Below are positions 6,492 to 41,143 of a stretch of 64,000 nucleotides of DNA, one piece after another (position 1 is the first letter of the stretch; every line of letters begins with the position of its first letter). The stretch is from Polytrichum commune (lineage: Eukaryota; Streptophyta; Polytrichopsida; Polytrichales; Polytrichaceae): NCBI GenBank assembly GCA_950295325.1, contig OX485805.1:14495501-14559500 (forward strand), in the 5' to 3' direction. Made by a program: the position numbers and the translations under genes. A model generated the notes under the pieces. That model worked only from the letters and a program-made list of their open reading frames with translations. It was not told where the DNA came from and did no database searches.

Positions 6492-8891
6492 CTATCTAGG
6501 TGGTTGAGGAGTCACATCGTTGTATGCACTTGAGTAGAATGGGTTTGTGTGGGTATTGTAAAAACCTCTCGCGACCTCTTGCATCATCCAAAGGATGCTC
6601 ATGTTTGCAGGTGGTGGCGCCATTGCTGGTTGCATGGGAGGCAAAAATGATGGTTGTAGTAATGTCCACTGCTGCGGGATAGCTTGTTGCAAGGAAAGGA
6701 GGCTATTTGTCCCTTGTTTCACCGCATTTGGAGTGTCACTAGTGCTCGGGAGTTCACTTGCCCCTGCTGTTGTGTCGTCACGATCAGCTGTCCCACGACG
6801 GCACCTTTTGGTAAGTTGTTGCATCTTCCTCTCTTGCTTCTTCTGTGCTTTTTGAGCTACGCAATCTTGCTTCTCTTTTTGTTGTTGTTCTCGCTGTAGC
6901 TTGCGTTGCTCCTAGCTTGCATTTTTATTTTTATTTTTTTGCGCTGCAGCTGCTGTAGCCTCTTTCTTAGCCAAGAGCTCCTCTAATCCTTTGATATAAT
7001 CTCTGGATGTTAAAATTATGCTCTTCGTGTAGTCTAAGAGAGGTTGTTGTTTTCTCCTTTTCTTTGTTGGGATTAACTCAGGCAAGGAAAGAAACTCATC
7101 AATGTTGCTATCATTTCTCTTTTTGAACTCCTCTCGGAATTCGGGGTCTATGGTGATGTGCTGATCATTCAAATCGCAATTGTTTTCCTCTGGATTTGGA
7201 ACATCTACATAAAAATGACATGTTCTTGAAGAGTTCTCGTGTCTTGCAGACTCTGTTTGTGAATTTATTTCAGCTTCAGTCACCATGTTGGGGAGGTCAT
7301 GGGAGTTGCCGCCAAGGCCATCACACGATTGCACCAAACTGCCACCTTCAATGTCATCACCAACCTCATCTTCACTTGAGTCTTCTTCACCAAGAGGTTG
7401 AATTTCTTGACCCCCTTCTTCAAATCCTCTACTAGGTTCCATGCGGTTTGTTGCAGCAGTGTCATCTAGTGGCCAAATCCCAGTCTTCTTAAAACTTGAT
7501 TTGATGTTCTTCGAAGTGAATGATCTCTTCAAGGCTTGGGATGTCCATTCACATAGAGTAGTTTTCTCCACCTTTTTGTCTTTGTTCAGCAGGGTCCAAG
7601 AGTCCCTAATTTGCTTAAATGCAGATTTAAAGGGTTTAAAGTAGCTGACATCCAAGGGCTGCAAGGCATGGGAGGTGTGGGAAGGTAGAGAGATAATGTC
7701 CAAATTAGAATTTATTGTTGATTTCACAACTTAAAGAGTGACATGGGAGTTATGCCCATCCAAGACAAGTAAGTGCATGTTTTTCTCATCAATTCCTATT
7801 GTTTTTTTTCGTCCCAATGAAATACAAAATCCAAAAATAAAATAACCACTTGGTCATCCATGCATTGGATTGCATGGCCACTACGGCATCCTCCTCACAA
7901 TTTTTGACATAGTCTTGTCGAAAGTAAGTTCCCTTGAGGATATAGAAATTTGGAATCTTCCCACCATCAACATTGATACATGACAAAACCGATAAGTGCT
8001 TTCTCTAATCTGCTTCAATTGTTTGTACAGATCTGCTTCCCACTTTGGCTAGTACAGTGGCCCCCCACTTCTTCCTGCTTGGACTCCACTCTCATCATAA
8101 TTCCAAATATGTGATGGTGGGTAATTCCAAGTATCATATAGCTCCTTTAGATAGCAATAGAAGCTAGCAGCCGCTGATGGGCACAAGCCTCTAGCTCTTG
8201 CTAATTCTAAAGGTTGGTTTTTTCTATTCACTAGTTCAGGGTGCTTTTGTTTGAAACTTCTTAGCCATGATTTTCCAGAAACCCCTGTAGCACTCCATGG
8301 GGTCTCTCTTGTTTGGGTGGCTTGGGCCACTTTTAACCTCAGCTGCCCTGGGGTTAAAGGATGGCCCAAGTCTTGCATTTTAAATAAATATTCCAATATT
8401 TTTTTTTCTTCATTTTAAAAAAAAATTGTTTTGGCTCCTCTTTTCCTTCCTTGCATTCTTCTATACAAGTGATCACAAATTGAACTAGGTGGAATGCCAA
8501 AGGTACGGGAAGCAACTCTCACCTTCATGCCATCATCAATAATTGCATCTAGGGCTGCCCTGAGTTGTACATTTGTCCAATTTCATGTTTTATTGGGTAG
8601 ATTCCTCCTAATTTTGTTGCAGAGCACTTCTTGGCTATTTGGAGCAACTCTCTCATCAATTATTGAGCCACCCATGAGGTTGTCACCTTCACCTCCACTG
8701 CTAAAATTACTTTGTGAAGGGTTTTGGTGCTCCAAAAGGGCTGAATTTCTCAAGTTTGCTCTCCTTGCTCCACCCATGAAATTGTCATCTTCATCCCTCT
8801 TTCTGAAATTACTTAGTGAAGAATTTTGGTGCCCGAAAGAGGTTGAACTCATGAAACTCATTCTCCTTCCTTTTTCTCTCTCCTCTCTCAA
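6492..8891 (-). pseudogene. pogo/Tigger-type transposase, degraded
   Basis: Read on the minus strand, the domains come in the normal pogo order. First is a psq-type helix-turn-helix (WTNVQLRAALDAI ... SRTFGIPPSSICDHL, about 8465-8585). Next is a CENP-B-like HTH (TGVSGKSWLRSFKQKHPEL, about 8230-8300). Last is a DDE_1 core with the first Asp in IWNYDESG, the second in LLVLDGHNSHV, SLPSHTSHALQPLDVSYFKPFK, and the terminal GIWPLD. The C-terminal tail is Gln/Lys-rich and low-complexity. Damage: a 1-nt frameshift in the G run near 8060, another in the A run near 7800, stops replacing codons at 8011, 7730, 6910 and 8580, and a repeated Ser/Asn-rich segment near the N-terminus. The full frame would be about 800 codons. 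It is not expected to be functional. Confidence 0.88.
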
Positions 8892-10260: not shown

Positions 10261-11517
10261 ATGCCCACAACAAACACCCAACAAACCACAAACCACAACC
10301 CACAACCAACACACACCTTTAGAAAACAATACAACAACAAACCCATAATTAAAAAATTACATAAACCAAACACAAAAAACCAACGGAGTACACCAAATCG
10401 AAAACACAAGGGCGAACAAATACCACAAATTGAAGAAAATACACACAACTAATAGAACCGAAATAAAAAACAAAAACTTGCATAAAACTACACACATAAT
10501 ACTATAAAAATGTGAAGACATAGAATCAAACCTGGGACCTATGCCTAATATATTGAAAGAACATCCACCGACACATAGGCGGAGATCTAAAACATACTTC
10601 ATACCATGCAAAATAAAACTCCACCCAGAATACCAACACATTACACAAAGCTTCTCCCCATTATTAAAAACAAACCATCCTAATCACAACAATGCCTCTA
10701 GGACATTCCCCAAGGTCTCACTATATATTAACCAAAAAAAACCAATTCCCAACACCAAATATACTATTTACACTAATCACAACACCAAGCCCAAACATTA
10801 ACACATGTGAACATCTCATCAGTAACTTAAACCTAGACTGGCCTACAATACTCCTAAATAAACTAAACACCTTAAGAAACCCCCTTGAAAGACACATCAA
10901 CACTATATACCCACACACCCAACTCATACAAGAGAATCAAAACCTAATCAACCCACAATCTATCATACACAAAAGCATTTATAAACTTATACACCAAAAC
11001 CATGACCCGCCAAACCTCCAAACACTCAAAGATAAATACCCTTACTTACCTATAAACATTCTTAAGGAAACATTAAGAATATTTGAGCCCCTAACAAAAT
11101 ACACACACCCCCCACCCACACCATTGCCACCCTCACCACCACCACCACAACTAAGCCAAAACACCAACCACCACACCCAAATCATTACATGGAATGCCGC
11201 GTCATTAAGCACAACACTACCCAACATACAAGACATTATCCACCACTCACAAGATAAACCTGCCATAATTACCATACAAGAAACTAAATGAATGGCATCT
11301 AAATCAACTAAATACATACAAAATCTATTCCCAGAACACAAACTAATCTTCAATAACACACATGCACTAACCATATGTATCCAACAAAGTATGTTGTACA
11401 CCCCAACTAGAGGAGGCCTACTTACACTTATACACAAAAAATACACATTCCAAGGAAACATTACCAAAATACCCTCCCCTGCCAACATATCATCACACCT
11501 ACAAATCATCCATATAA
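10261..11517 (+). pseudogene. LINE N-terminal region and first half of APE endonuclease
   Basis: Fragments at 10261-10452, 10541-10801 and 10692-11291 continue after a TGA (11289-11291) into 11292-11517. The frame 10692-11517 has a proline-rich linker (about residues 138-155), then ITWNAASL, the N-terminal strand of an APE nuclease with its Asn, and IITIQETK, which supplies the catalytic Glu. It then runs to LQIIHI, where the DNA element at 11518 cuts it. The second half resumes at 17922. The large minus-strand frames here (for example 11042-11509) are shadows created by G depletion. Confidence 0.75.
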
Positions 11518-11532
11518 CATTAGAAAAGTTAT
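11518..11532 (+). repeat. left terminal inverted repeat of two-gene element
   Basis: CATTAGAAAAGTTAT. It matches the reverse complement of 17907-17921 except for one G/A difference. Similarity beyond 15 nt is weak (a GGC is shared). Confidence 0.7.
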
Positions 11533-11864
11533 CGGGCCTTTAAGTGGCCTCCAATATTCGTACCCAATGGAGCCTATGTGCAGAGCCTGCCCGTGGCTAC
11601 ATCAAGAATGTATGACGTGGAAGGCAGTTGTACAGGTATGATTATCCATCGAATGAGAAAGTGGGATTTAGGCGCCAAGAAGCCTTGCGCGCTTACGTTG
11701 TTTTGAAGTGTCAATGTTTCGCGCGCTTCTGTGGTTTCATTGTCTTTCTGACTGCTCTTCTTTTTCTATGTGTCTTTCTATGTGTCACTTCTCTTTGCCA
11801 AGGAATTTTGCCAGGTTTAGGTTTGCTTCTAGGAACTCTCTGGTTCTCTACTTCTGTTTCGGCA

Positions 11865-13649
11865 ATGGCTATCGGAGTGATTGAGTCAGTCAGTATTGAA
11901 AATAATTCTGAAGCAGGAGTTAGGGTTTCATTGAGAGTAGAAATTAATTCGTGGGTTTCTCTTAGGCCTGGAAAAAAAGGAGGGCACGCAAAGGATGCGG
12001 CAAGGCACGGTGGTGCAGATAGCATTGAAGGATCTTATAAGGCAAGGATTTCGGGATTCCGCATGAGTCCAAGATGCAAAGGCGTTTCGGCAGTGCAAGT
12101 GCAACACGCATATCAGCGCCGTCAACTGGACTTAGATCCCACAGTCTTAATTGGGCTAGGCGCCGTAAACTGTAAGTTAGAAGCTTCGTTTCCTTACAAC
12201 ATGCTTATTATTGTATTGTTAACTTTTTCCCTTCAAACATTGAGGGTTCTGTATATTGTTTATCTTGGCAAACTTTTGATGGCTCGAATTCTCTCTACTC
12301 CCTGAGTTCTCCTAATGTCGTTCACTTTTTTTTCTTGTCAATCAGTATGTAGACTGGTTCTCACCTTCTTCAGTCAGTTTCTCGTTTTGTCCGATTCTAT
12401 ATTGGTGATGAAGTTGTGAGTTCCGTGCATATGAATGGTAGTGCATGTAAATTATTAGTTCATAATTAGCGCCGTGACAAGAACGACGGTACCAGTCATG
12501 CTACTATGCAGCTGTGGAATGAACTCCCATGACATCACCAGTAGCTACTCGTTGCTGCAATAGAACTCATATGGAATTTTGTGAAGTGTTGTGGCACTTA
12601 TCATTACCATGCCTCGGTGGGCTCTGAGCTAAATTCTATCGAAAATGTGTGCTCCTGAAACTCATAATTTTGTCTCCTTCGTTTCCTTACAGCATGCTTA
12701 TTATTGTATTGTTAACTTTTTTCCCTTCAAACATTGAGGGTTCTGTATATTGTTTATCTTGGCAGACTTGTATTTGAGTGACTTCAAAGATTGGGTACAC
12801 CCAGAGAGCATCATTGGAGTTATTGTGGTTCTTCATGCTGAGATTGGAGAGCGTACTCGAGGGGTCAGGTCACATGCGGAGCTCTTAAGGGACAATGTTT
12901 TCTTTTATAATGCTACATACATACCAAGATCAAATTCTTTGACTTTTGGGACAGTGATCCCAATTCCACTTCCTGGACTCGAATCAGCTGAATGGCCGTT
13001 GCCAGATATGTATACAACAGAAGCTTTTCAGGCCAGATTTCGCACAGAGTTTCAATCTGCAATGAGGCCTACTACCGGCAACAAACAGACACATTTCTCA
13101 TGCTTTCTACCTATTCACGTCTTTGTTGATCTGTTTGTTGTAGCAAGTTCAAATGTTACAAGAAAGCCAACAATGTTCGTTTTCAAACCTGTGAAAAAAG
13201 AACTCACAGATTCCTTGATGGATCAAGGATGGAATATTAAAGTTTCAATAGGCGTTGATCACATCAAATGCACAGTCGATTCTACTCCACTGGTATTCCG
13301 TTATCACATTGGTAGGTCAATTCTATACACAAACTTTGTGTACAATCGAGAAAGGCAAGTTGGTCTTAATAAATGGCAAGCTATGGATAATTTTGAGCCT
13401 GAAGTTATTGTGACTATCCAGTGCGAGATGGGAGACATGTGGAGCCAAGAGCTGGAAGTTGGAATGTCGTGGTTCCTGTCAGATGTGAGAAAAGAATTAG
13501 AAGTGTATTTGGGAAGTGATATTGAGTTTAGGCTTGCGATCATTGATTGTAATAGAGCGAATTTAGTCAACTACAAAAACGAAAAGAAGAAGTTTGTTGT
13601 AGACTTGTTACCACCAAAAAAACTTCGCCTTATAGAAAAATTAGCTTAG
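11865..13649 (+). CDS. unrecognised two-exon gene of nested element, about 396 aa
   Basis: Exon 1 is 11865-12171 and exon 2 is 12766-13649. The donor AACT|GTAAGT and acceptor TTGGCAG|AC join in phase (one base plus two) to give a frame of about 396 codons ending in TAG. I prefer the ATG at 11865 (MAIGVIES). An upstream in-frame ATG at 11628 would add a hydrophobic stretch (about 11690-11850) that looks like translated leader. The N-terminal 100 residues are basic and low-complexity (RPGKKGGHAKDAARHGG). Exon 2 is a mixed alpha/beta sequence with no catalytic motif I recognise (VHPESIIGVIVVLHAEIG, IPIPLPGLESAEWPLPDMYT, WNIKVSIGVDHIKCTVD). It is an accessory or DNA-binding protein of the element, or a captured host gene; I cannot decide. 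There are no internal stops, unlike the opposite-strand partner. Confidence 0.6.
12184..12276 (+). repeat. intronic direct repeat, copy 1 (inactive acceptor)
   Basis: About 92 bp beginning CTTCGTTTCCTTAC and ending TTTATCTTGGCAAACTT. It is nearly identical to 12677-12769. The position of the splice-acceptor AG in copy 2 reads AA here. Confidence 0.85.
12677..12769 (+). repeat. intronic direct repeat, copy 2 (active acceptor)
   Basis: The second copy of the same block, ending TTTATCTTGGCAG|ACTT, which supplies the acceptor of exon 2 (12766). It differs from copy 1 by an extra T in the T run and a few substitutions. Confidence 0.85.
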
Positions 13650-13666
13650 TTGATCAAGATGTTAAA
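13643..13666 (+). repeat. 24-bp direct repeat at 3' end of plus gene
   Basis: Starts AGCTTAGTTGATCAAGAT and contains the TAG stop of the plus-strand gene. It is identical to 14186-14209. Between and after it, GTTGATCAAGAT is repeated several times (to about 13735). Confidence 0.85.
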
Positions 13667-14185
13667 TTCTTGATATGTTGATCAAGATGTTGATCAAGAT
13701 GTTAATCTTAATATGTTGATCAAGATGTTCATCTTAATATGTTTCTCATGGTCATCCACTTCAATAAGTTTGTAGCAATGCAGATTGTTGTTCATGATCA
13801 CTCTTTGCATCACAAATCACCTGGCTGTCTGTTTAGAGCTTGCTCTGAATTTTGCACGTCAAGTGTGTAAGTGTGTAAGAGTCAACTTGTTAGTTGCACG
13901 TCAAGTGTGTAAGAGTCTGTATTTGTAATCACGAGAACCAGGCTAAACAACAGCAAAATGGTACAACAAGATGAGTTATATGCGTTAGATACTGTCAAGG
14001 GGTCTTCACAACTTCCCTCATTAGACACGTTCCTTCAAACGATGGAGACTTTACAAAATGGCCTAGGATAGTTCCATTTGATCAGCTTACCAGTCTGGCG
14101 GTCTCCCTATCAACATCCAACTAATAAACCCAGGCCTAGAACTTCAAGTAGAACGTCGCAGTACACCTGGGGCGCGAACATATTA
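13667..14185. other. spacer between convergent genes of the nested element
   Basis: Holds the GTTGATCAAGAT micro-repeats (to about 13735), a repeated AAGTGTGTAAG motif (about 13860-13915), and no supported gene. Confidence 0.4.
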
Positions 14186-14209
14186 AGCTTAGTTGATCAA
14201 GATGTTAAA
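14186..14209 (+). repeat. 24-bp direct repeat at 3' end of minus gene
   Basis: Identical to 13643-13666. On the minus strand it encodes the end of the last open frame (…NILIN, stop at 14189-14191), so the same repeat terminates both convergent genes. Confidence 0.8.
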
Positions 14210-17200
14210 CACTATTGTAGTTGTGCATGCTTCTTCAGTGATTGGCAACCACTTGCTGCCTTGGCGTCGACACTTGGATCTCCATGCTGCACTGTGAGCA
14301 GCTGCACTAGATCGTAAGGAAGCCTCCCACCTTGCAGCTATTGCTAGCTCGGCTTCTAGAGTGTCGAATTCATTCACAGGAATCTGAGTATCTTTATTTC
14401 GAAATCTATGGGCTATAATCCGGTACCAATGTTGAAAAGTTTGTACCAAAGGACTCTTCTTCACTCTACCTCCTGAGTGTTGGGTGTGGCGTTGGTAGGC
14501 AGTTTTAGCGGCATGATGACTATTTTCCATTCCCTGACAGCTCCATACTGCTAGAGAACCATATTTCTCTACAAAAAACACAGCATGTCGTACTAGAACA
14601 TGTTGTTTGACAAGTGAGGTGATATAGTTAGATATGATTAGTGAGGTGATAATATTAAACAACATGTAATATACTTATATAATCGAGCATATAGCAACAA
14701 AGCTCTCTATTAGTACACCGTTTGTTGTTCAAGGCACATTTCCATACCTAAGATGAATTATAGCTGATTTGCACTCTTACATTGAGGAGACACTTTGACA
14801 GGCAGACGTACCATACAGACATGAAGTTGTGGAAACGTACCATATAATGAGTCACATGTTGCTCTCCGAAGCATTTCACAAATAGCCTACCCCATGCTTC
14901 AACCTTTTGTTTGAAATCCGCAGTTGATTGATTCTCTTGCAATCTCAGACCTTGGCAATAAGGACGGAGTTCATCTAATAACCTCCAGAGCTCAAGCTGG
15001 TCTCTTTTATCTTGGCCCCTATTAGCAAAATTTTGCTCTGTATTCACTACATCAACATATAACTTTCGTGGTGTAGATCCTGTAATCGTTTCAGGATTGA
15101 GCTTGAAAAGCTTCATAGCATGAGGTCCACTGAAGGAACATTTGTTTGGAATGTTATTACACTTCCATGACAAGTCCTCGTCTTTAAACATAATGACATT
15201 GCCACCGTGGGCTCCAGTGAGTGATACGGCTTTCTGCATCTTGATAATGGCCTCCTTCTGTCGTGCTTCATTTTGTATCACCCACACTTGCATGAAGTGC
15301 AGATGCACAAGCTTCTCTATGATTCGATTCAGACAATGGATTGTACATATGTGTACACGGTCTAAGGGGATGGGCAACACAGGCTTCCACCGCTCGTGTC
15401 CAATTGTTGGACTTGCATCAATTGTGTTGGAAAACAAGCCATGACTCCATGAGTACTTCTGTTTTTCCTTCATTATTGTCTTAGCTTGCTCGATCGTTCC
15501 TATCATTGACTTACATCGTTGTTGATTGCAGTATATGCAACTAAATGGGTTGTTTGCTCCCATTGAAAGGCCATACATGCATTTCACTGTTTTCATGTCG
15601 GCTGCCATGTGCCATTCGACTTTGAATGAACCTATTCCTGCAGCTTCAAGCATTTGTCCTCTCTCTTGCTTATCTATCAATGATGGTATTTTAGTTTGGG
15701 AGAACACCCAACTTAGTATCTTATGCGACTCTTTAGGAATCTGAAATGCAGCTATAGGCCAGACTTCTCTTTCGCTTTGCACTGAAAAGTATTTCTCACT
15801 TTTAGGATCTATACTACTGTCAAGGGCTCTATTCATCAGTGTTAAAGAGACTCTCTCAAACTTTTGAGCATGCACAACTTCTGCTTCATCGAGCTTAATA
15901 CAAAACATGAGTGGATTCCCGTTCAGCTCTACAATAAAAAAATTCAAACAACATGTCAAAAACTTATATTCAATGATGCACAAATCAATGAAATTGAAGT
16001 GAACATGCAGCTTCATTTCCAACTCTAATATAAACTCTTGAAGGTGAACATGAACTCATGAAGAGTTGTGATACATACAATTGAGTTTAGGTTGTGGTAC
16101 ATACCTTCAACTGTGATGCCATATAGTTCAACCATTGTGCGTTGCACTTGCTCCACATCAGCAAAAATGTTGTTGTATTGATTCAAGGAAACGATGACAG
16201 AGTCTTTCTCCTTAGATTTGGTTGGTAGTGGAAATGTGTTTGACTCAGTCAACGAGTAGTAATCACCAATGAACTCTGCTAACTTTAGATTGAGCATTTG
16301 TCTGGTTTTGGACACTCTGAAAGGCCTTGGAAGGCAACCTATTCGCAAACCTCTGTTTGACACCTTTACAGCACTTTGGAAACGTTTGTAAACAGCAGCG
16401 TAGCCATTCTGTGTGATGCCATTATAGTCCATTGTTTCGACAATTTCCTCTGGACCAATGCTCTCTCCAATCTTGTCCATATATTCATTTGCAATTCCGA
16501 CTCCTACTTTGTTCATTCTTGTTGTTTTGCAGATTGCAGATACTTCATTCACTGACAACATATTTGCAAGGACCTTCCCTGTTTCAGCTTGTTTTTCACG
16601 ACTACCACAAAGACGCCGTCGAGATCCAGTTTCGGAATTCTGACTGCATATTTTTGTTAATGTGGTTGGCGCTATGATCGCCCTGGCCAATCTCATTGTT
16701 CTTTTTGCTTGACCCCCTCCTGGAGCGAGATCGCATAGATCTTTGCGTGGTCTAACTATACTACGATACCCGAAAGGCGTTCGAATCAATTTTCCAATTT
16801 TTGCTTCTCGCCGTCTCAAAGTCGCCTTGGTTCTTTTGAGTTGTCCCTAAATTAATTTGAATTTCTCTTCATTTTGCTCCTTCTCACTTTCGATCAATAT
16901 CCACAAGTCTAATTCAACTTGAAAGCGATCTTATGCACTTTGTGATTCAATAGCAGTGAAATTGCGGATACGCTCTTCGTGATCAAACTGCATGGCAGAA
17001 TATTCTTCTCTCAACGTAGACAACTCGCCTCTCAAAGAATCGGTGGTTACAAGGACCTCTCTACTTTGCTGAACTATGCTCTCACGTGATTGAATTTCGG
17101 AACGAGCGAAGTTAAGTAGTTGATTCTTTTCCTCAACATCATTTGTCAATCGCAAAATATGCTCACGAAGTGCTTGTATCTCTCTCTTCCCTTCATCAAT

Positions 17201-17503
17201 TTTGAACAACATTGTACTGTCAAGTGAGCATAAACTTTCTACATAGCCTAAGAGACCGTTTTTCCCCTCTCCAACATATTCTAGTAATTGGTTGACGCTT
17301 CGAAAACAAGGTCGTTTATCCAAGACAGGGTGCTTGGGATAAAGAGATCCATCAGTCCAAAGGTCAATACATGTAGCTCCCGCCTCTCTTAATGCTGGAA
17401 ACTTTGACTTGTGAGTTTGTTCATGCAACATGCGACTGCGATTTATCAATGGTGCATATTTAGAACCGATGGTAGCAGATAGTTTATAAGGTTTGTCTGC
17501 CAT
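14189..17503 (-). pseudogene. transposase-like gene of nested element, damaged
   Basis: Starts MADKPYKLSATIG at 17503. The first exon, 17503-16105, stays in one frame but holds two stops (TAA 16931-16933, TAG 16847-16849), both explicable as CAA/CAG to TAA/TAG. It begins with a CxxxW-type patch, then a coiled coil (about residues 105-185), then a basic region (RRREAKIGKLIRTPFGYRS). The next exon starts at 15928 (phase agrees: GAAG|GTATGT to TTGTAG|AG) and carries EWHMAADMKTVKCMYGL and CIYCNQQRC, then HCLNRIIEKLVHLHF and SGPHAMKLFKL. A final exon (about 14625-14189) reads RHAVFFVEKYGSLAVWSCQGMEN. ADMK...GL...CxxC followed by a late CQGMEN...H pattern recalls large uncharacterised, repeat-encoded proteins seen in cnidarian, fungal and plant genomes. 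A transposase role is inferred. The junction near 14840/14625 is uncertain. Confidence 0.6.
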
Positions 17504-17906
17504 TTTTTAACCAAAAAAATACTGTCAATCCAAAATTTGACAGACACAAATGCTACAGTGTACTGCACAATCACGCTGCAAAAGCATCACGCCAAATCTA
17601 AAACCATACAGACTAGCAGACGTTGCTCTTCATGACACACAAAATGCCACGAAAAGAAAATGGAACCGCATGAAAAGAAAAGGTATGTTCATGGACAGAA
17701 TTGGAGCGGCAAAAATGGAGCGGGAAAGCTGACGACATGATGACGTGTGACAGGCGCATGGGCATGACAGTGAGCATGGGAAGCTTCTTTGAACTTCCCG
17801 CTCGATGACCGCCCATTCTTGGATGGGAATATTCCCGCTTGCCCGCCCATTCCTGGAGGGACATTGTCAGGATTTGATCAAAGGACCAAGGCCTTCTCCA
17901 TGCCTC
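17504..17906. other. right subterminal non-coding region of nested element
   Basis: Upstream of the minus-strand gene's ATG and inside the right inverted repeat; it should hold that gene's promoter. It contains an imperfect inverted pair (CATTCTTGGATGGGAATATTCCCGC-like around 17813-17845, of which only short parts match). No protein is supported, and the plus-strand frame that starts at 17805 belongs to the LINE only from 17922 on. Confidence 0.4.
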
Positions 17907-17921
17907 ATAATTTTTCTAATG
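17907..17921 (-). repeat. right terminal inverted repeat of two-gene element
   Basis: The reverse complement is CATTAGAAAAATTAT, matching 11518-11532 at 14 of 15 positions. LINE coding sequence resumes at 17922. Confidence 0.7.
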
Positions 17922-18689
17922 AAAAATAACCCACTTCGATCGTGGTTATTAATTCATATGTACATGCCATCACATGAAGAGGACACTAGATTAAACCTTG
18001 ATATAATGCATACCATCAATACACAAATAACAACACACCCGAACTACGTACACATAATCTGTGGAGACTTTAATAGAGACATTGCATTAATAGGTAAGCA
18101 AAATGAATACGGTACCACCCCCCCCCCTTTCAAGAGGAGGATACTAGATGAAGGATGTACATTGATAAGGACAAACACTAGCCTCATAAACGGTTTTTAT
18201 ACAAACACACAACATGCAACAACATACACATCGATCACACTCCAAGAACAAAACCTTAACTCCGACCATTTACCAATAATTCTAAAAATACCACCTAACA
18301 CCCTAATAGCTAGAGTATCGCAACCTCCACCACCCTTAACAACTAAAATTAAGAACCCCATCCCACAAGAAAACCTATATAAATTCAACACCAAGTTTTT
18401 TGAAAAAAATGCAATCCAACTAAATGAAATAACTACCCTACTATCTAACAACCATCTACCAAATGTACCATGGCACATAGCATGCACACAAATGGACAAT
18501 ATCACCCACAAAATCTCAAGAACCATAAAAGAAACATGTAAAGCCACACCCATACCCACACTAACCAATAGAACCAATCAACAAGGAGGCTACCTACCTA
18601 GAAAACTCCAAAAAATATGGAGAAAACATATAGCAACCTATCACCTAATAATAATAAAAACAATATACGTACATCGTAAAAAAACATAA
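17922..18689 (+). pseudogene. LINE APE endonuclease, second half
   Basis: Continues the domain interrupted at 11517: NNPLRSWLLIHMYMPSHEED, then HIICGDFNRD (the GDFN active-site motif with catalytic Asp and Asn) and LNSDHLPIIL (the SDH motif with catalytic His). The core motifs of an APE-type nuclease, normally used to nick target DNA for reverse transcription, are thus conserved, although the gene is split by 6.4 kb of foreign DNA. A basic linker toward the RT follows and ends in a stop at 18687-18689. Confidence 0.85.
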
Positions 18690-20230
18690 TGAATTGACAC
18701 ACGCACCCCATAATTGCTACACTAGGGAGGCACAATCACGTACGCATACCCCCCCCGCCCGAAAACAACTCACAACAAAATACATGGATTAAGGAATTAG
18801 CAACATTAGCCAAAGTAGCAAATGTACAAGCTAGGAAAATCACAACTAAATACACCAAATAATGCATTAAGAAAGCCATATCCAATATAGGAAATTTTAT
18901 GAAACTAGCCCCCCGCCCCAAAAAAAAAATTCTTTAGAAACATCGACACACCGCCACTAGACCGCATCACCGACCGAACAACAGTACACTCACAACTCTT
19001 GAAGATATAGCAAATGAAATACATATACAACAATCTATCAGCAACAAACCCATTGTACCCACATGCTACTACTTACCAGACCACCCTCCATCATGTACGT
19101 GTGCAGTTAGATAATACCCATGGCATAACCTAAAAGGACTTATTCTCAAAAAACGGGATGACCTACATATATCCCCATACACATATTTTGACTTAAAAAC
19201 GTACAACCTGTGCCTTAAAAACTTAGCAAATAAAAAAACTCCAGGCCCATAAAAGATACCCAACTCTATACTAAAAGACATGCCCCAAAAATTCCAACAT
19301 GTATTATTCTTATTTTTTACACACTGCTATAGTCAGAAGAAAATCCCAGCCTCTTGGAAAACCAACCTTACAATACTATTATATAAAAAAGGCAATCCAT
19401 TTGTACTATACAACCACAGACCGATGGTACTTGCAAATACATTATACAAACTTTTCACTAGCGCCCTAACATCAATATTCTCATCATATGGAGAAAAATA
19501 CCAAATACTAGAAGACAACCAAGAAGGATTTAGAGCAAAAAGGTGTACGTCAAGACAAATACAAACACAAATAACAGCATTAGAAGACACCCAATTCACT
19601 AAATACACCTTCAACACATCTAAATACATAGTCAGTTTTGTAGCATATGCAAATGATCTAGCCACCATCACCAACAGACTCACGTCAATACAATCACAAC
19701 TAAACAAAGTAGATAAATATTGTGAATGAGCATGTATGGACCTTGGAATATCAAAATGTGCAGTCACAGGGTGCCCTAACAAATCCAAAATGAACCAAAT
19801 ATCATTCAAAAGAGAATTCCAAACTGCCAACGTTACATATAGAAACCAGACCATCCCCGTACTACACCAAAACAAACCATATGTGTACCTAGGTATCCAA
19901 CTTGTCCCCTCCCTCAAACGGAAAATACAAATGCATACCACAACCACCAAGGTGATCAGTCAATGTAGTCAATTAGCAAATTGCCCAATAATAATTAAAC
20001 AAAAAATTAGTATGGTAAATATAGTTATTGGAGCATGAATAGCATATAGCTTCTATGCAATACCATACTCACTACATGGAGTTATAAAACTAGATTAAAA
20101 AAAGATAACAATTCAAAAGAAAATATGCGGACTCCCCAACTGCACACCAAACATGGTCACTCAACTACCTCAAGAGATGTTTGGGGTAGAAGCATTTTCA
20201 CTAAAAAAATGCCTACCTTAGATGTATCAG
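18690..20230 (+). pseudogene. LINE reverse transcriptase with internal deletion
   Basis: Motifs can be read in pieces: KIPASWKTNLTILLYKKGNP and NHRPMVLANTLYKLF (fingers), EDNQEGFRAKRCTSRQIQTQ, then SFVAYANDLATI, MDLGISKCAVTGCPNKSKM and PYVYLGIQL, GLPNCTPN (thumb). The YADD box reads YAND, a loss of the second metal-binding Asp. Between SRQIQTQITALEDTQFTKY and the YAND box about 80 residues that hold motifs A and B are missing. A TGA replaces the Trp expected before ACMDLG (19727-19729), and others follow. The protein could not work. Confidence 0.8.
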
Positions 20231-38023: not shown

Positions 38024-40959
38024 TCAATTGGCATGCGCCATTTTGTTGGGTTCCCTTCTTGCAGAGTTGCTACTGGCCTCCGATTCCTTTGGCCGGCCTG
38101 ACCCTGCATCGACGAGTCCCTTGAAAGTCTCCATAACCGTGGGCAGAAATTTGCTGGAAACCGTGACGATTCCTGGCAAGGCTCCATACTGGAATTGACG
38201 ACCCAGGTCGAATTGCACCCACAATGCCTTGGCGATCAAGAATAATACAAATATCACTGGAAGATACAGAGGATTTCGGAGTAGCGCCATGAATTCGTTG
38301 AATCCAAGTACAACGATTGCAGCAACTGCCCAAGGTGGTGGCAACCAAGTATTCCCATGCCTCTTTGCTTCTTGAGCTGAGAGGGCTTGACTAATACTAT
38401 ACTCTGTTTCTACTTTAAACTGTCTCCATAATGATCTGCATTGAGCAGGAGTCAGCATTGTGTCCGCAGGGGCAACACCGGGCCACGTGGAAGACGCCAA
38501 GCCATTATTCGAACTTGGGGGACTATCCCCTGTTTCGGAATTTTCTGCTCCCTCAATGGCGAGTTGATCGGGGTCTCTCAATAACGTCAATAGTGAGGCT
38601 TCTATACCATCTGGTGGACCGTCAGAATCCAGTCGGAGAACAGCGATAACTGAAAGCAATTTCAAAGAAGCAACTCTCGCAGCTTTTGTGATGGAACGCA
38701 CATCATGCTCCTCTCCCCATACCCTAGGCAGGGAATCCTCATCATGTCCAAACGTATTGCTGAATCGATCCTTCATACGAATCAGCGCCTGAGATGATTC
38801 ATCCCTGGCCTTCTTCTCCACGATGCTCCGAGAATGATTCACCAGATTCATCAACATGGAACTCTTCTCTTCCCCTGTTGGCTCGAACGCGGATAATGCT
38901 TTTGCAAGACTTTCTGTGGCGACCCTGTTCTCATGCTCTAATAATCTTCTAATAGACGGCCACGTGTCTTGCGTAGCTTGATCCAATAGGGAAGACACAG
39001 GTTCCGCGATTGCAGCCTCTAGCTCCTTCTCACTCGTAGATCGAAGCTCCTGGAGTTTTGCAGCTCTTACGGATTGAGCGTGAGCATTAATGTCTCGCAC
39101 TAATTTCTCCCGGATCTTGGATGTGTCCCACTTTGCCTGCACCACGCTTGCATCTGCATACAACACATCGAATCAATGGCACGACACTTGTCTACTCTCT
39201 ACTCACCATTCAAATTTCAAACATTCTAAATTTAAGTGATAGACACCTGCTCCTGAGAAAGAGAGCGAGAGAGAGAGAGAAGGCCTTACTTCCAATACTG
39301 GATGGTATTAGAAGATAGTGCAAGAAAGTAGTTGGCAAGAAGCCATTGATTATGCTACAATTGCGTGGGAGAAAGCTCTCAAACAATCGAAGAGGGGGGT
39401 TATTTTTATGATGACGTCTTTGCAAAATTCGACACTATTCAGGGTGAAACGACCTCCTCTATCATAGGTCCAATTATAGGATTATGTGGACCAATCAAGC
39501 GCCTGATGTTGGGTTAGTTGATCATGCTTAGGTTCTTCATCTTCTTTTAGTTGTACATCCTTCTTGAGGTTTTGTGGTTACCGTAGAGAGTCCACAGCTT
39601 GTATGTTTTTTGGAAATGAGACAAAACTTGTTGCATTTGTGTCTTTACTCTACTCACCATTTCCAAATTCCAAATATATAGAGAGAAAACGAGAAACTTA
39701 CCATCGCAAGCACGATCAAAATGATCCAGAGCAGTTTGAGAACACTGCCTCGTTGTGGCCGCGAAGCCCTGATTCCTGGAGTCAATGGACTGCTGAAGGT
39801 TTATCTTGAATTTCTCAAATGCCTCCGTACGATAGTGACCGATAACAGCATCGTAGGACGGTTCCACCAAGTCAAGAGCTTGAGACACGAGGTAATTTCG
39901 TTTTGACGTCCGAACACCTTCATCAAAGAAGCCTGCCTCGGTTTCATACTCCTGAACATATCTATCCAAAAGCGCGCTCACTTTCTTTCCAAATCCAGGC
40001 ACTACACCTCCATTAGAAGCCTCCTCGAGCTTCTTCCACTTATCATCACTTTTCAGATTCTCAAGCTTCTCATGAGCGATCTCCTCACATCGCACCGTGG
40101 CCACCATGACTTTGTGCGCGGGCAGGTCCAAATCCTTATTCTCCTTGATGACTTTCCAAATCTCATGAGCGCTGAAAGGAAATCCTGTCCCCGGAACCAC
40201 AGCTCTCCGATCCCCCGCCAATCCTCCAGGCGCAACCGAGTTGTTAAACCGTTGCCTAAGCTTGTCGACTTCAATCCGAAACTGGTCCTCCTTCTCCTCA
40301 TAATTCGATAACGCCGTCACCTCCAGATTAAAAAACTCGCTTATCGGCGTGTCCTTCAGTTTACCAGGCTTCGGCACACTGTCCCATATCTTCTGCACAT
40401 CATCTCGCAGGATCGGCTCCAAAACTTCCATCGGCGTCTTCGTCTTGTCACGAATCACAAACATAAGTGTCGTCTTCCTAGGTGAAAACAGCCGCATCAT
40501 CACCTGAAACACCGTCTTCAACAACGGCTTATTCGATGCCTGCTCCCTACCAATATCATGACACCACATGTTAATCAACACAATGTCCGCCACGGCCAAA
40601 GAGAACAACGCACTCTGCTTCTCGAACGCTGTATCGTCCTCCCCTCGTTCCCTCCCGTCCGTCCCTTCCAAATCCATTATCAAAGTGCACGGCTCCAACC
40701 CATCGGCTCGCTGCATCCACACCCCTTTCGTTGTCTGATTCCGTCCCATGAGCGCATCCATCTCCCGAAACTTCGTGTGGAACAAATGATTCAACAGCGT
40801 GCTCTTCCCACTGCTCTGCGGTCCCATAATCGCCACCACTGCGTATGAGAGACCGCATTCTGCAAGCCGCACTCGCTTGCAGAAATCCACGAGATCCTGT
40901 TCGATGAATTCGCCTCTCTCATTGATCAATTGTATCGCAGGTGCGCCTTCCTGCGCCAT
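38024..40959 (-). CDS. RHD3: RHD3/SEY1-type dynamin-like GTPase, ER membrane fusion
   Basis: Plant atlastin/SEY1 counterpart that fuses ER tubules and shapes the ER network. Two exons (40959-39702 and 39153-38024) join in phase at GATG|GTAAGT to ATGCAG|AT, giving 795 aa, close to Arabidopsis RHD3. The GTPase domain has the P-loop GPQSSGKST at residues 46-54, switch Thr in QTTKGV, DLEGTDG at 96-102 and RDK at 170-172. A long helical region follows to about residue 680. Then come two membrane segments ([18 protein letters not shown] and [17 protein letters not shown], about residues 693-733), typical of the ER hairpin anchor, and a short cytosolic tail. The start [20 protein letters not shown] matches the usual N-terminus of the family. 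Oddity: a single 548-bp intron. Stop TGA. Looks intact. Confidence 0.97.
39154..39701 (-). other. sole intron of RHD3, with GA microsatellite
   Basis: GT-AG intron of 548 bp. It contains a (GA)n stretch at about 39262-39281 on the plus strand (CT on the sense strand) and no open frame. Confidence 0.9.
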
Positions 40960-41143
40960 CGCAATTCAAAATTCTCAACCCTCAGTTCTCAATCCTCGAT
41001 TCGCCCTCTCTCTATTCCCGTGCGTCCCTAATCTGCGAAACCCTTGCTGCTCAATCGTTCGAGCCAGCGTGCCATGTCCAGGCGCTTCGGCTACGTCTTC
41101 CTTAAGCACGAAGAAGCTTGAAGCTGTGAGCCCCGCCCCCCGG

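Follow-up and report, generated by a model that had tools for sequence, protein, structure and literature searches.

A mobile DNA element of 6404 bp was identified at positions 11518–17921 of a 64-kb stretch of Polytrichum commune contig OX485805.1 (referred to throughout as the window), where it lies inside a long interspersed nuclear element (LINE). It is probably a cut-and-paste DNA transposon of the CACTA-Mirage-Chapaev-Transib/RAG1 (CMCT) clade resident in a land plant, comprising a DDE transposase (gene 2) and a second transposition protein with a BAH-like domain (gene 1). The principal evidence consists of copies with identical ends and corresponding empty sites, the match of active-site residues to those of RAG1, and the convergent pairing, joint descent and purifying selection of the two genes.

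Termini and genomic copies

The initial annotation, made from the window alone, had described 15-nt terminal inverted repeats, matching at 14 of 15 positions, around a 6.4-kb block, and this description was upheld. The left repeat (CATTAGAAAAGTTAT, read from 11518; core 11518–11532, + strand) and the right repeat (CATTAGAAAAATTAT, read in reverse from 17921; core 17907–17921, − strand) are continued by weaker similarity to about 11550 and back to about 17889, respectively; the element as a whole was assigned no strand. A DNA-level search of the genome (408 Mb, 64 contigs) using the middle of gene 2 returned 16 matches, namely the window, two full-length matches at 98%, one partial match at 98% and 12 diverged matches. 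Complete elements of 6347 bp (L001) and 7074 bp (L002, with additional DNA between its two genes) and an internally deleted element of 3760 bp (L003) were delimited, each of which, like the window copy, starts with CATTAGAAAAGTTATC and finishes with TAATTTTTCTAATG. The flanks of these four copies are unrelated to each other, and the ends first seen in the window thus recur at three further loci, confirming 11518–17921 as a real multi-copy mobile DNA element. The left end was found at five places in the genome and the right end at four, from which the window subfamily is considered small in copy number; one of the five (C3:25942995-25943065) consists of no more than the initial 71 bases, at 99% identity, and represents either a fragment of the end or a short derived form.

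Equivalent ends were recorded in other subfamilies, with CATTACAAAA present at both ends of L005 and L022. Only one end was found for L023, which starts with CATTAGAAAAATATTCAGGC, and for L006, which starts with CATTAGGAAGAATCTCAGGCC, the far ends of both having been looked for and not found. The similarity between L008 and L009 stops directly after CCTAATG, and ends sought at L004, L020, L021 and L024 were in no case convincing. The termini take the form 5'-CA..TG-3', as CATTAG..CTAATG in the four window-subfamily copies and as CATTAC..GTAATG in L005 and L022.

At the protein level, at least 69 genome matches were obtained with the transposase exon and at least 62 with exon 2 of gene 1, so that the single-copy host genes which the initial annotation had envisaged as a contrary outcome failed to materialise. 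A host gene or a chance repeat was rejected as an explanation on the basis of these matches and of the copies with shared ends. An Rfam scan of the window gave no match.

Empty sites and target-site duplication

The target LINE is represented by its left part, the interrupted endonuclease region (10668–11517, + strand), and by the remainder of the endonuclease domain together with the reverse transcriptase (17922–19729, + strand). Pfam matches to the right of the element (Exo_endo_phos_2, E 4.7e-5; RVT_1, E 0.0035) were both below the curated cut-off, and the right flank gave at least 55 genome matches, many of them beginning at the first base past the element. In an alignment of ten element-free LINE copies with the joined flanks, nine were continuous across the junction throughout the region displayed; the tenth (L011) had only about 14 bases aligned to the left of the junction. 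The A-rich stretch at that point is seven letters long in the window, six in eight of the ten LINE copies, and five in L015 and L018, and the window insertion is accordingly associated with one extra A in an A-run.

Equivalent comparisons at other loci gave a plain join of the flanks in 10/10 empty sites for L002, right at the junction (one of these, L042, having a substitution four bases off), and no base missing or added in 7/7 empty sites for L001, while for L022 a plain join restored a perfect 17-bp inverted repeat in the target. The single empty relative available for L003 (89% identical) indicated one extra A, again in an A-run; GG flanks L005 on either side, and none of the 40 matches listed provided an empty site for it. 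The duplication was thus 0 bp in three of the five testable insertions (L001, L002 and L022), with one extra A in the window and in L003. Because both of these exceptions sit in A-runs, zero duplication is the preferred reading, and the element seems to insert without target duplication, the exceptions reflecting slippage. Neither of the duplications between which the initial annotation had hesitated (ATAA or AAAA) was present at the empty sites, which allow 0 bp and at most 1 bp, and the same comparison led to the rejection of a CACTA-type 3-bp and a Transib-type 5-bp duplication.

The repeat targeted by L002 (L036–L045) is very uniform, 40 of the 42 matches listed being 97–98% alike over 440 bases, with 2895 first-look candidates; it is perhaps a recently active family.

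The transposase gene

When spliced in the manner of homologous loci, gene 2 (− strand) consists of three exons totalling 966 codons plus a stop. Exon A (16105–17503) encodes the conserved N-terminal part; exon B (14841–15928) contains the first and second catalytic aspartates, D1 (15888–15890) and D2 (15597–15599), and a zinc-type CxxC (15537–15539 and 15528–15530); and exon C (14189–14602) contains an H(4)H pair (14600–14602 and 14585–14587) followed by the catalytic glutamate (14525–14527). The last intron falls between HYM and HV. Both the ADMK...CIYC core and the CQGMEN box noted previously are present.

In a family alignment (A1; eight of 17 rows), D59, D156, C176, C179, H411 and H416 were invariant in 8/8 rows and E436 was present in 7/8. 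In the highest-scoring local profile alignment with mouse RAG1, VTHYMHVLVRHAVFFVEKYGSLAVWSCQGME was paired with 31 RAG1 letters without gaps (score 34.7, P 0.00095), a score reached by none of 150 shuffled sequences, the highest of which was 26.9. This alignment pairs H411, H416 and E436 with H937, H942 and E962 of RAG1. In a second alignment, whose P of 0.33 is not significant by itself, D156 falls opposite D708 and C176/C179 opposite C727/C730. The match had a P of 0.0076 prior to splice correction, with 0/100 shuffles as high, and of 0.001 when hand-trimmed rows were omitted. Judged on these sequence comparisons, gene 2 is a DDE transposase with its D, D, CxxC, H(4)H and E lined up with those of RAG1, and the earlier suggestion of a transposase of a poorly described class was supported and narrowed, by virtue of the catalytic and zinc-site residues, to the CMCT clade. 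That clade, taken here to comprise EnSpm/CACTA, Mirage, Chapaev, Transib, Plavaka, ESTA and Lanisha with RAG1, is characterised by the motifs C(2)C and H(3-4)H, mostly CA..TG ends and duplications of 2–5 bp (Kojima 2025, PMC12730594). A profile of host CACTA copies gave P 0.44 against the gene 2 family and 0.35 against RAG1, a comparison that says little about distance because the set consisted of six near-identical copies.

The window copy of gene 2 is broken and cannot encode an intact transposase, as it has two in-frame stops in exon A, TAA at codon 191 (16931–16933) and TAG at codon 219 (16847–16849), neither of which is present in L001, together with a last intron lacking an AG acceptor. 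The acceptor is AG in 9/11 homologous loci printed (L023 not being among them) and AA in L006 and L025, and within the window subfamily it is AA in the window and L001 and AT in L002; either it has been lost or a different acceptor is used, and the splice model for exon C is for this reason uncertain in the window subfamily. In L002 there is one stop further along exon A, L003 is frame-shifted, and the L001 match to exon B includes one TGA, so that none of the four window-subfamily copies looks able to supply an intact transposase. A PDB sequence search with the transposase exon gave chance-level matches only, a tblastn search of the exon against phage records returned nothing, and a viral-contig scan with the transposase profile gave 131 pattern matches, of which none was confirmed.

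The probable partner gene and its BAH-like domain

Gene 1 (+ strand) was annotated as a two-exon gene of 396 codons, a structure with which the sequence agrees: exon 1 runs from the ATG at 11865 to 12171, past which lies the donor GTAAGT, the GT..AG intron occupies 12172–12765 with the acceptor CAG ahead of 12766, and exon 2 extends from 12766 to 13649, giving 396 codons plus a stop. A stretch of about 92 bases is present at both ends of the intron (12184–12275 and 12677–12769; 96–98% alike in two pieces), and also in L001 and L002.

The BAH domain is a fold found in the plant histone readers EBS and SHL, in which it is combined with a PHD finger. It was sought in gene 1 after a pattern had been spotted by eye in the alignment, the Pfam scan coming afterwards, and the reference profile was built from seven of the nine BAH domain matches in the same genome, the best host BAH gene matching Arabidopsis EBS at 94 of 118 residues and others being of plant type, which marks the host as a land plant. 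The gene 1 profile matched these seven domains with P 0.0027 before splice correction (0/100 column shuffles as high), and with P 0.00034 once two intron-read columns were removed, the alignment then being collinear over about 91 columns. Omission of a composite row gave P 0.00023, and three BAH subsets gave P 0.00011, 0.0027 and 0.0097; cross-comparisons of gene 1 with RAG1 and CACTA, and of the transposase with BAH and CACTA, gave P 0.28 to 0.74. The N-terminal half of gene 1 thus resembles a BAH domain, begun in exon 1 and completed by about the first 60 residues of exon 2, the remainder of which is conserved and unplaced. In SHL, the trimethyl-lysine cage is formed by Tyr41, Trp63 and Tyr65 (PMC6013494), and the positions of both tyrosines are occupied by Tyr in 7/7 gene 1 rows. 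No kelch or PHD match was obtained in a Pfam scan of gene 1.

Pairing, joint descent and selection

Merging of the protein matches by strand and distance produced 45 transposase and 43 gene 1 clusters. All 18 pairs within 5 kb of each other were convergent; within 12 kb there were 21 convergent pairs and one tandem, and within 25 kb 22 and two. Three of the pairs, near C2:23.2 Mb, resemble copies of one locus. About half of each set was unpartnered, at least 19 gene 1 clusters having no transposase match within 12 kb and equally many transposase clusters no gene 1, for which decay and missed matches may be responsible. In some subfamilies (L007, L026 and C4:47679549) the two genes are 6 to 7 kb apart; compared with L008, the DNA beside the L007 transposase is rich in internal repeats.

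Transposase and gene 1 protein distances were strongly correlated (r 0.931; 0/5000 permutations as high) over eight of the 11 two-gene loci, the near-identical L001, L002 and L022 having been left out. The ratio of non-synonymous to synonymous substitution rates (dN/dS), a rough measure for pairs with few changes, was 0.14–0.41 in 7/9 pairs for the transposase exon and 0.09–0.41 in 6/8 pairs for gene 1, the other two pairs being saturated in each case, and purifying selection thus acts on both genes. The initial annotation had left open whether gene 1 is a partner or cargo; convergent pairing, correlated divergence and selection on both genes favour the partner and tell against cargo.

Other features of the window and genome

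Elsewhere in the window, a host gene for an RHD3/Sey1 (atlastin-like) GTPase occupies 38024–40965 (− strand; two adjoining open reading frames gave Pfam matches at E 1.3e-107 to RHD3_GTPase and at E 3.2e-85 to Sey1_3HB), and the remnant of a different DNA transposon lies at 6912–7730 (− strand; Pfam DDE_1, E 1.6e-5, above the cut-off). CACTA transposases are abundant in the genome, with 643 candidates, 150 of which were scored and listed, all of them exceeding the Pfam cut-off.

Proposed mode of action

In the mechanism proposed, the transposase, whose C(2)C/H(4)H zinc site has the same position as that of RAG1, would bind to inverted repeats of the form CATTAG...CTAATG, excise the element and join it to the target with zero or almost zero stagger, although repair-mediated capture of an excised piece could provide an alternative path to zero duplication. 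The BAH protein would bind both the transposase and a methylated histone tail, and might thereby either steer the machinery to particular sites or sustain the activity of the complex where chromatin is silenced, a role comparable to that which RAG2 performs for RAG1 through its PHD finger. The RAG1-RAG2 pair that underlies antibody diversity is itself derived from a two-gene transposon whose second gene includes a histone reader. If the proposal is correct, it would point to the pairing of a RAG1-type transposase with a chromatin reader having arisen more than once, and would make the reader's job in transposition testable in plant cells. Duplication-free insertion would also be unusual for a CMCT transposase, for which 2 to 5 bp is reported. 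The further-reaching view, that the element exemplifies an unrecognised eukaryotic superfamily in which a RAG1-type transposase acquired a BAH chromatin reader as an obligate subunit, independently of RAG2 and its PHD finger, and joins targets without a stagger and hence without a duplication, is offered only tentatively and is on balance doubtful.

Alternative interpretations

A number of results weigh against the interpretation of the element as a CMCT transposon with a BAH-like partner. Pfam transposase models, including Transposase_21, gave no match in 8/8 rows at E up to 1, and PDB profile searches with both proteins yielded chance matches only, RAG1 being absent from the transposase results at E up to 10; by way of calibration, RAG1 itself recovers the Transib transposase in the PDB at only E 0.003. 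Use of all 17 rows in raw form weakened the RAG1 match to P 0.045 and shifted the best match to the D2/CxxC region, and raw pieces reduced the gene 1 match to BAH to P 0.022. BAH was the only Pfam family returned for the window gene 1 protein, at E 0.19, in 1/7 rows and with 12.1 bits, below the curated cut-off of 30.8. The Trp63 cage position is His in 6/7 gene 1 rows, Trp occurring only in L026, and a single-sequence AlphaFold model of exon 2 of gene 1 was useless (mean predicted local distance difference test score, pLDDT, 38). To these must be added the AG-less acceptor common to the window, L001 and L002, and the discrepancy between a duplication of 0 bp (one extra A in two insertions) and the 2–5 bp reported for the clade.

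Among named lineages, Lanisha, whose authors are said to work on the moss Ceratodon, which would suit a non-flowering land plant as host, has to be weighed as an alternative to novelty. Lanisha was put forward as a cut-and-paste superfamily in Repbase Reports 2020 and later assigned to the CMCT clade. That the element is a member of it, so that the class already has a name and only the family is new, is a serious possibility falling somewhat short of an even chance: Lanisha, compared by description only, is cited in PMC12730594 as a recently reported lineage that shares the C(2)C and H(3-4)H motifs. The same source describes it as similar to EnSpm, whereas gene 2 showed no likeness to host CACTA (P 0.44, from the narrow set described above), and includes it among the lineages said to make 2–5 bp duplications. 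That the likeness of gene 1 to BAH is due to chance, its fold being something else, is unlikely; all BAH scores are weak by database standards and the domain was looked for only after it had been noticed by eye, but the match is collinear over about 91 columns, improves on removal of intron read-through, persists with each of the BAH subsets used (P 0.00011 to 0.0097), and is absent from the four cross-comparisons.

A duplication of 1 bp, produced by a minimal stagger with the base matching by chance, would accommodate the extra A in the window and L003 and the observation that the base adjoining each end is equal on both sides in 4/6 insertions (window, L001, L003 and L005). It is nevertheless distinctly improbable in the face of unchanged length at all of the L002 and L001 empty sites, the inverted repeat restored at L022, and the location of both exceptions in A-runs, where 2/10 LINE copies vary by one A in any case. 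Very improbable also is the view that gene 1 is mere cargo, a host BAH gene picked up and useless in transposition. Host BAH genes do exist (nine matches), and fungal transposons are described in PMC12730594 as carrying and swapping the chromatin-related gene TET/JBP; yet all close pairs are convergent, the distances of the two proteins correlate, and the gene 1 sequence is far from host BAH genes, as its Pfam E-value attests.

Comparison with known systems

The initial annotation could place the inverted repeats in no named superfamily. The contrary outcome that it had envisaged, a hit to a known superfamily, did not come about in sequence searches of Pfam and the PDB, which assigned neither protein to a family with a dependable score; Repbase consensuses lay outside the comparison. 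Literature searches found no paper joining RAG1-like, transposon and BAH domain, and, among the papers listed, nothing recognised as matching on a BAH domain with a transposase, on duplication-free elements, on DNA transposons of bryophytes or lycophytes, or on Ceratodon; the searches did not extend to Repbase Reports or to many subscription papers, so that neither result is proof of an unpublished system.

Like CMCT elements generally, the element has D, D and E with C(2)C and H(3-4)H between the second D and E, and ends in CA..TG; unlike them, it has a BAH-like partner gene and no detected overall similarity to host CACTA transposases. The EnSpm/CACTA elements of the same genome have, by eye, a similar D, CxxC, H..H, E layout, but the element ends in CATTA rather than CACTA and lacks a 3-bp duplication. 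Spy, a DDE transposon of the PIF/Harbinger group known here through citing text and likened by description only, is described as being without target duplication, and belongs to another transposase group. With EBS and SHL, gene 1 shares the alignable BAH domain and both cage tyrosines, differing in the mostly His occupancy of the Trp63 position and in having no PHD finger seen.

PMC9435367 reports plant proteins that are Transib-like, as well as a RAGL element from an alga. The element has catalytic and zinc residues as in RAG1, a property shared with Transib, from which it differs in being a two-gene element with different ends and no 5-bp duplication. RAGL elements, as outlined in PMC7204232, carry RAG1L and RAG2L in convergent orientation, end in heptamer-like sequences and make duplications of 5 bp. 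With these and ProtoRAG, the element has in common two convergent genes, a RAG1-type active and zinc site, and a partner with a probable histone-reading domain; the partner is BAH-like rather than kelch plus PHD, the ends are CATTAG rather than a CAC heptamer-like sequence, and there is no 5-bp duplication. Ends, duplication and partner thus speak against RAGL membership, and the element would appear to resemble a two-gene RAGL transposon in its working layout.

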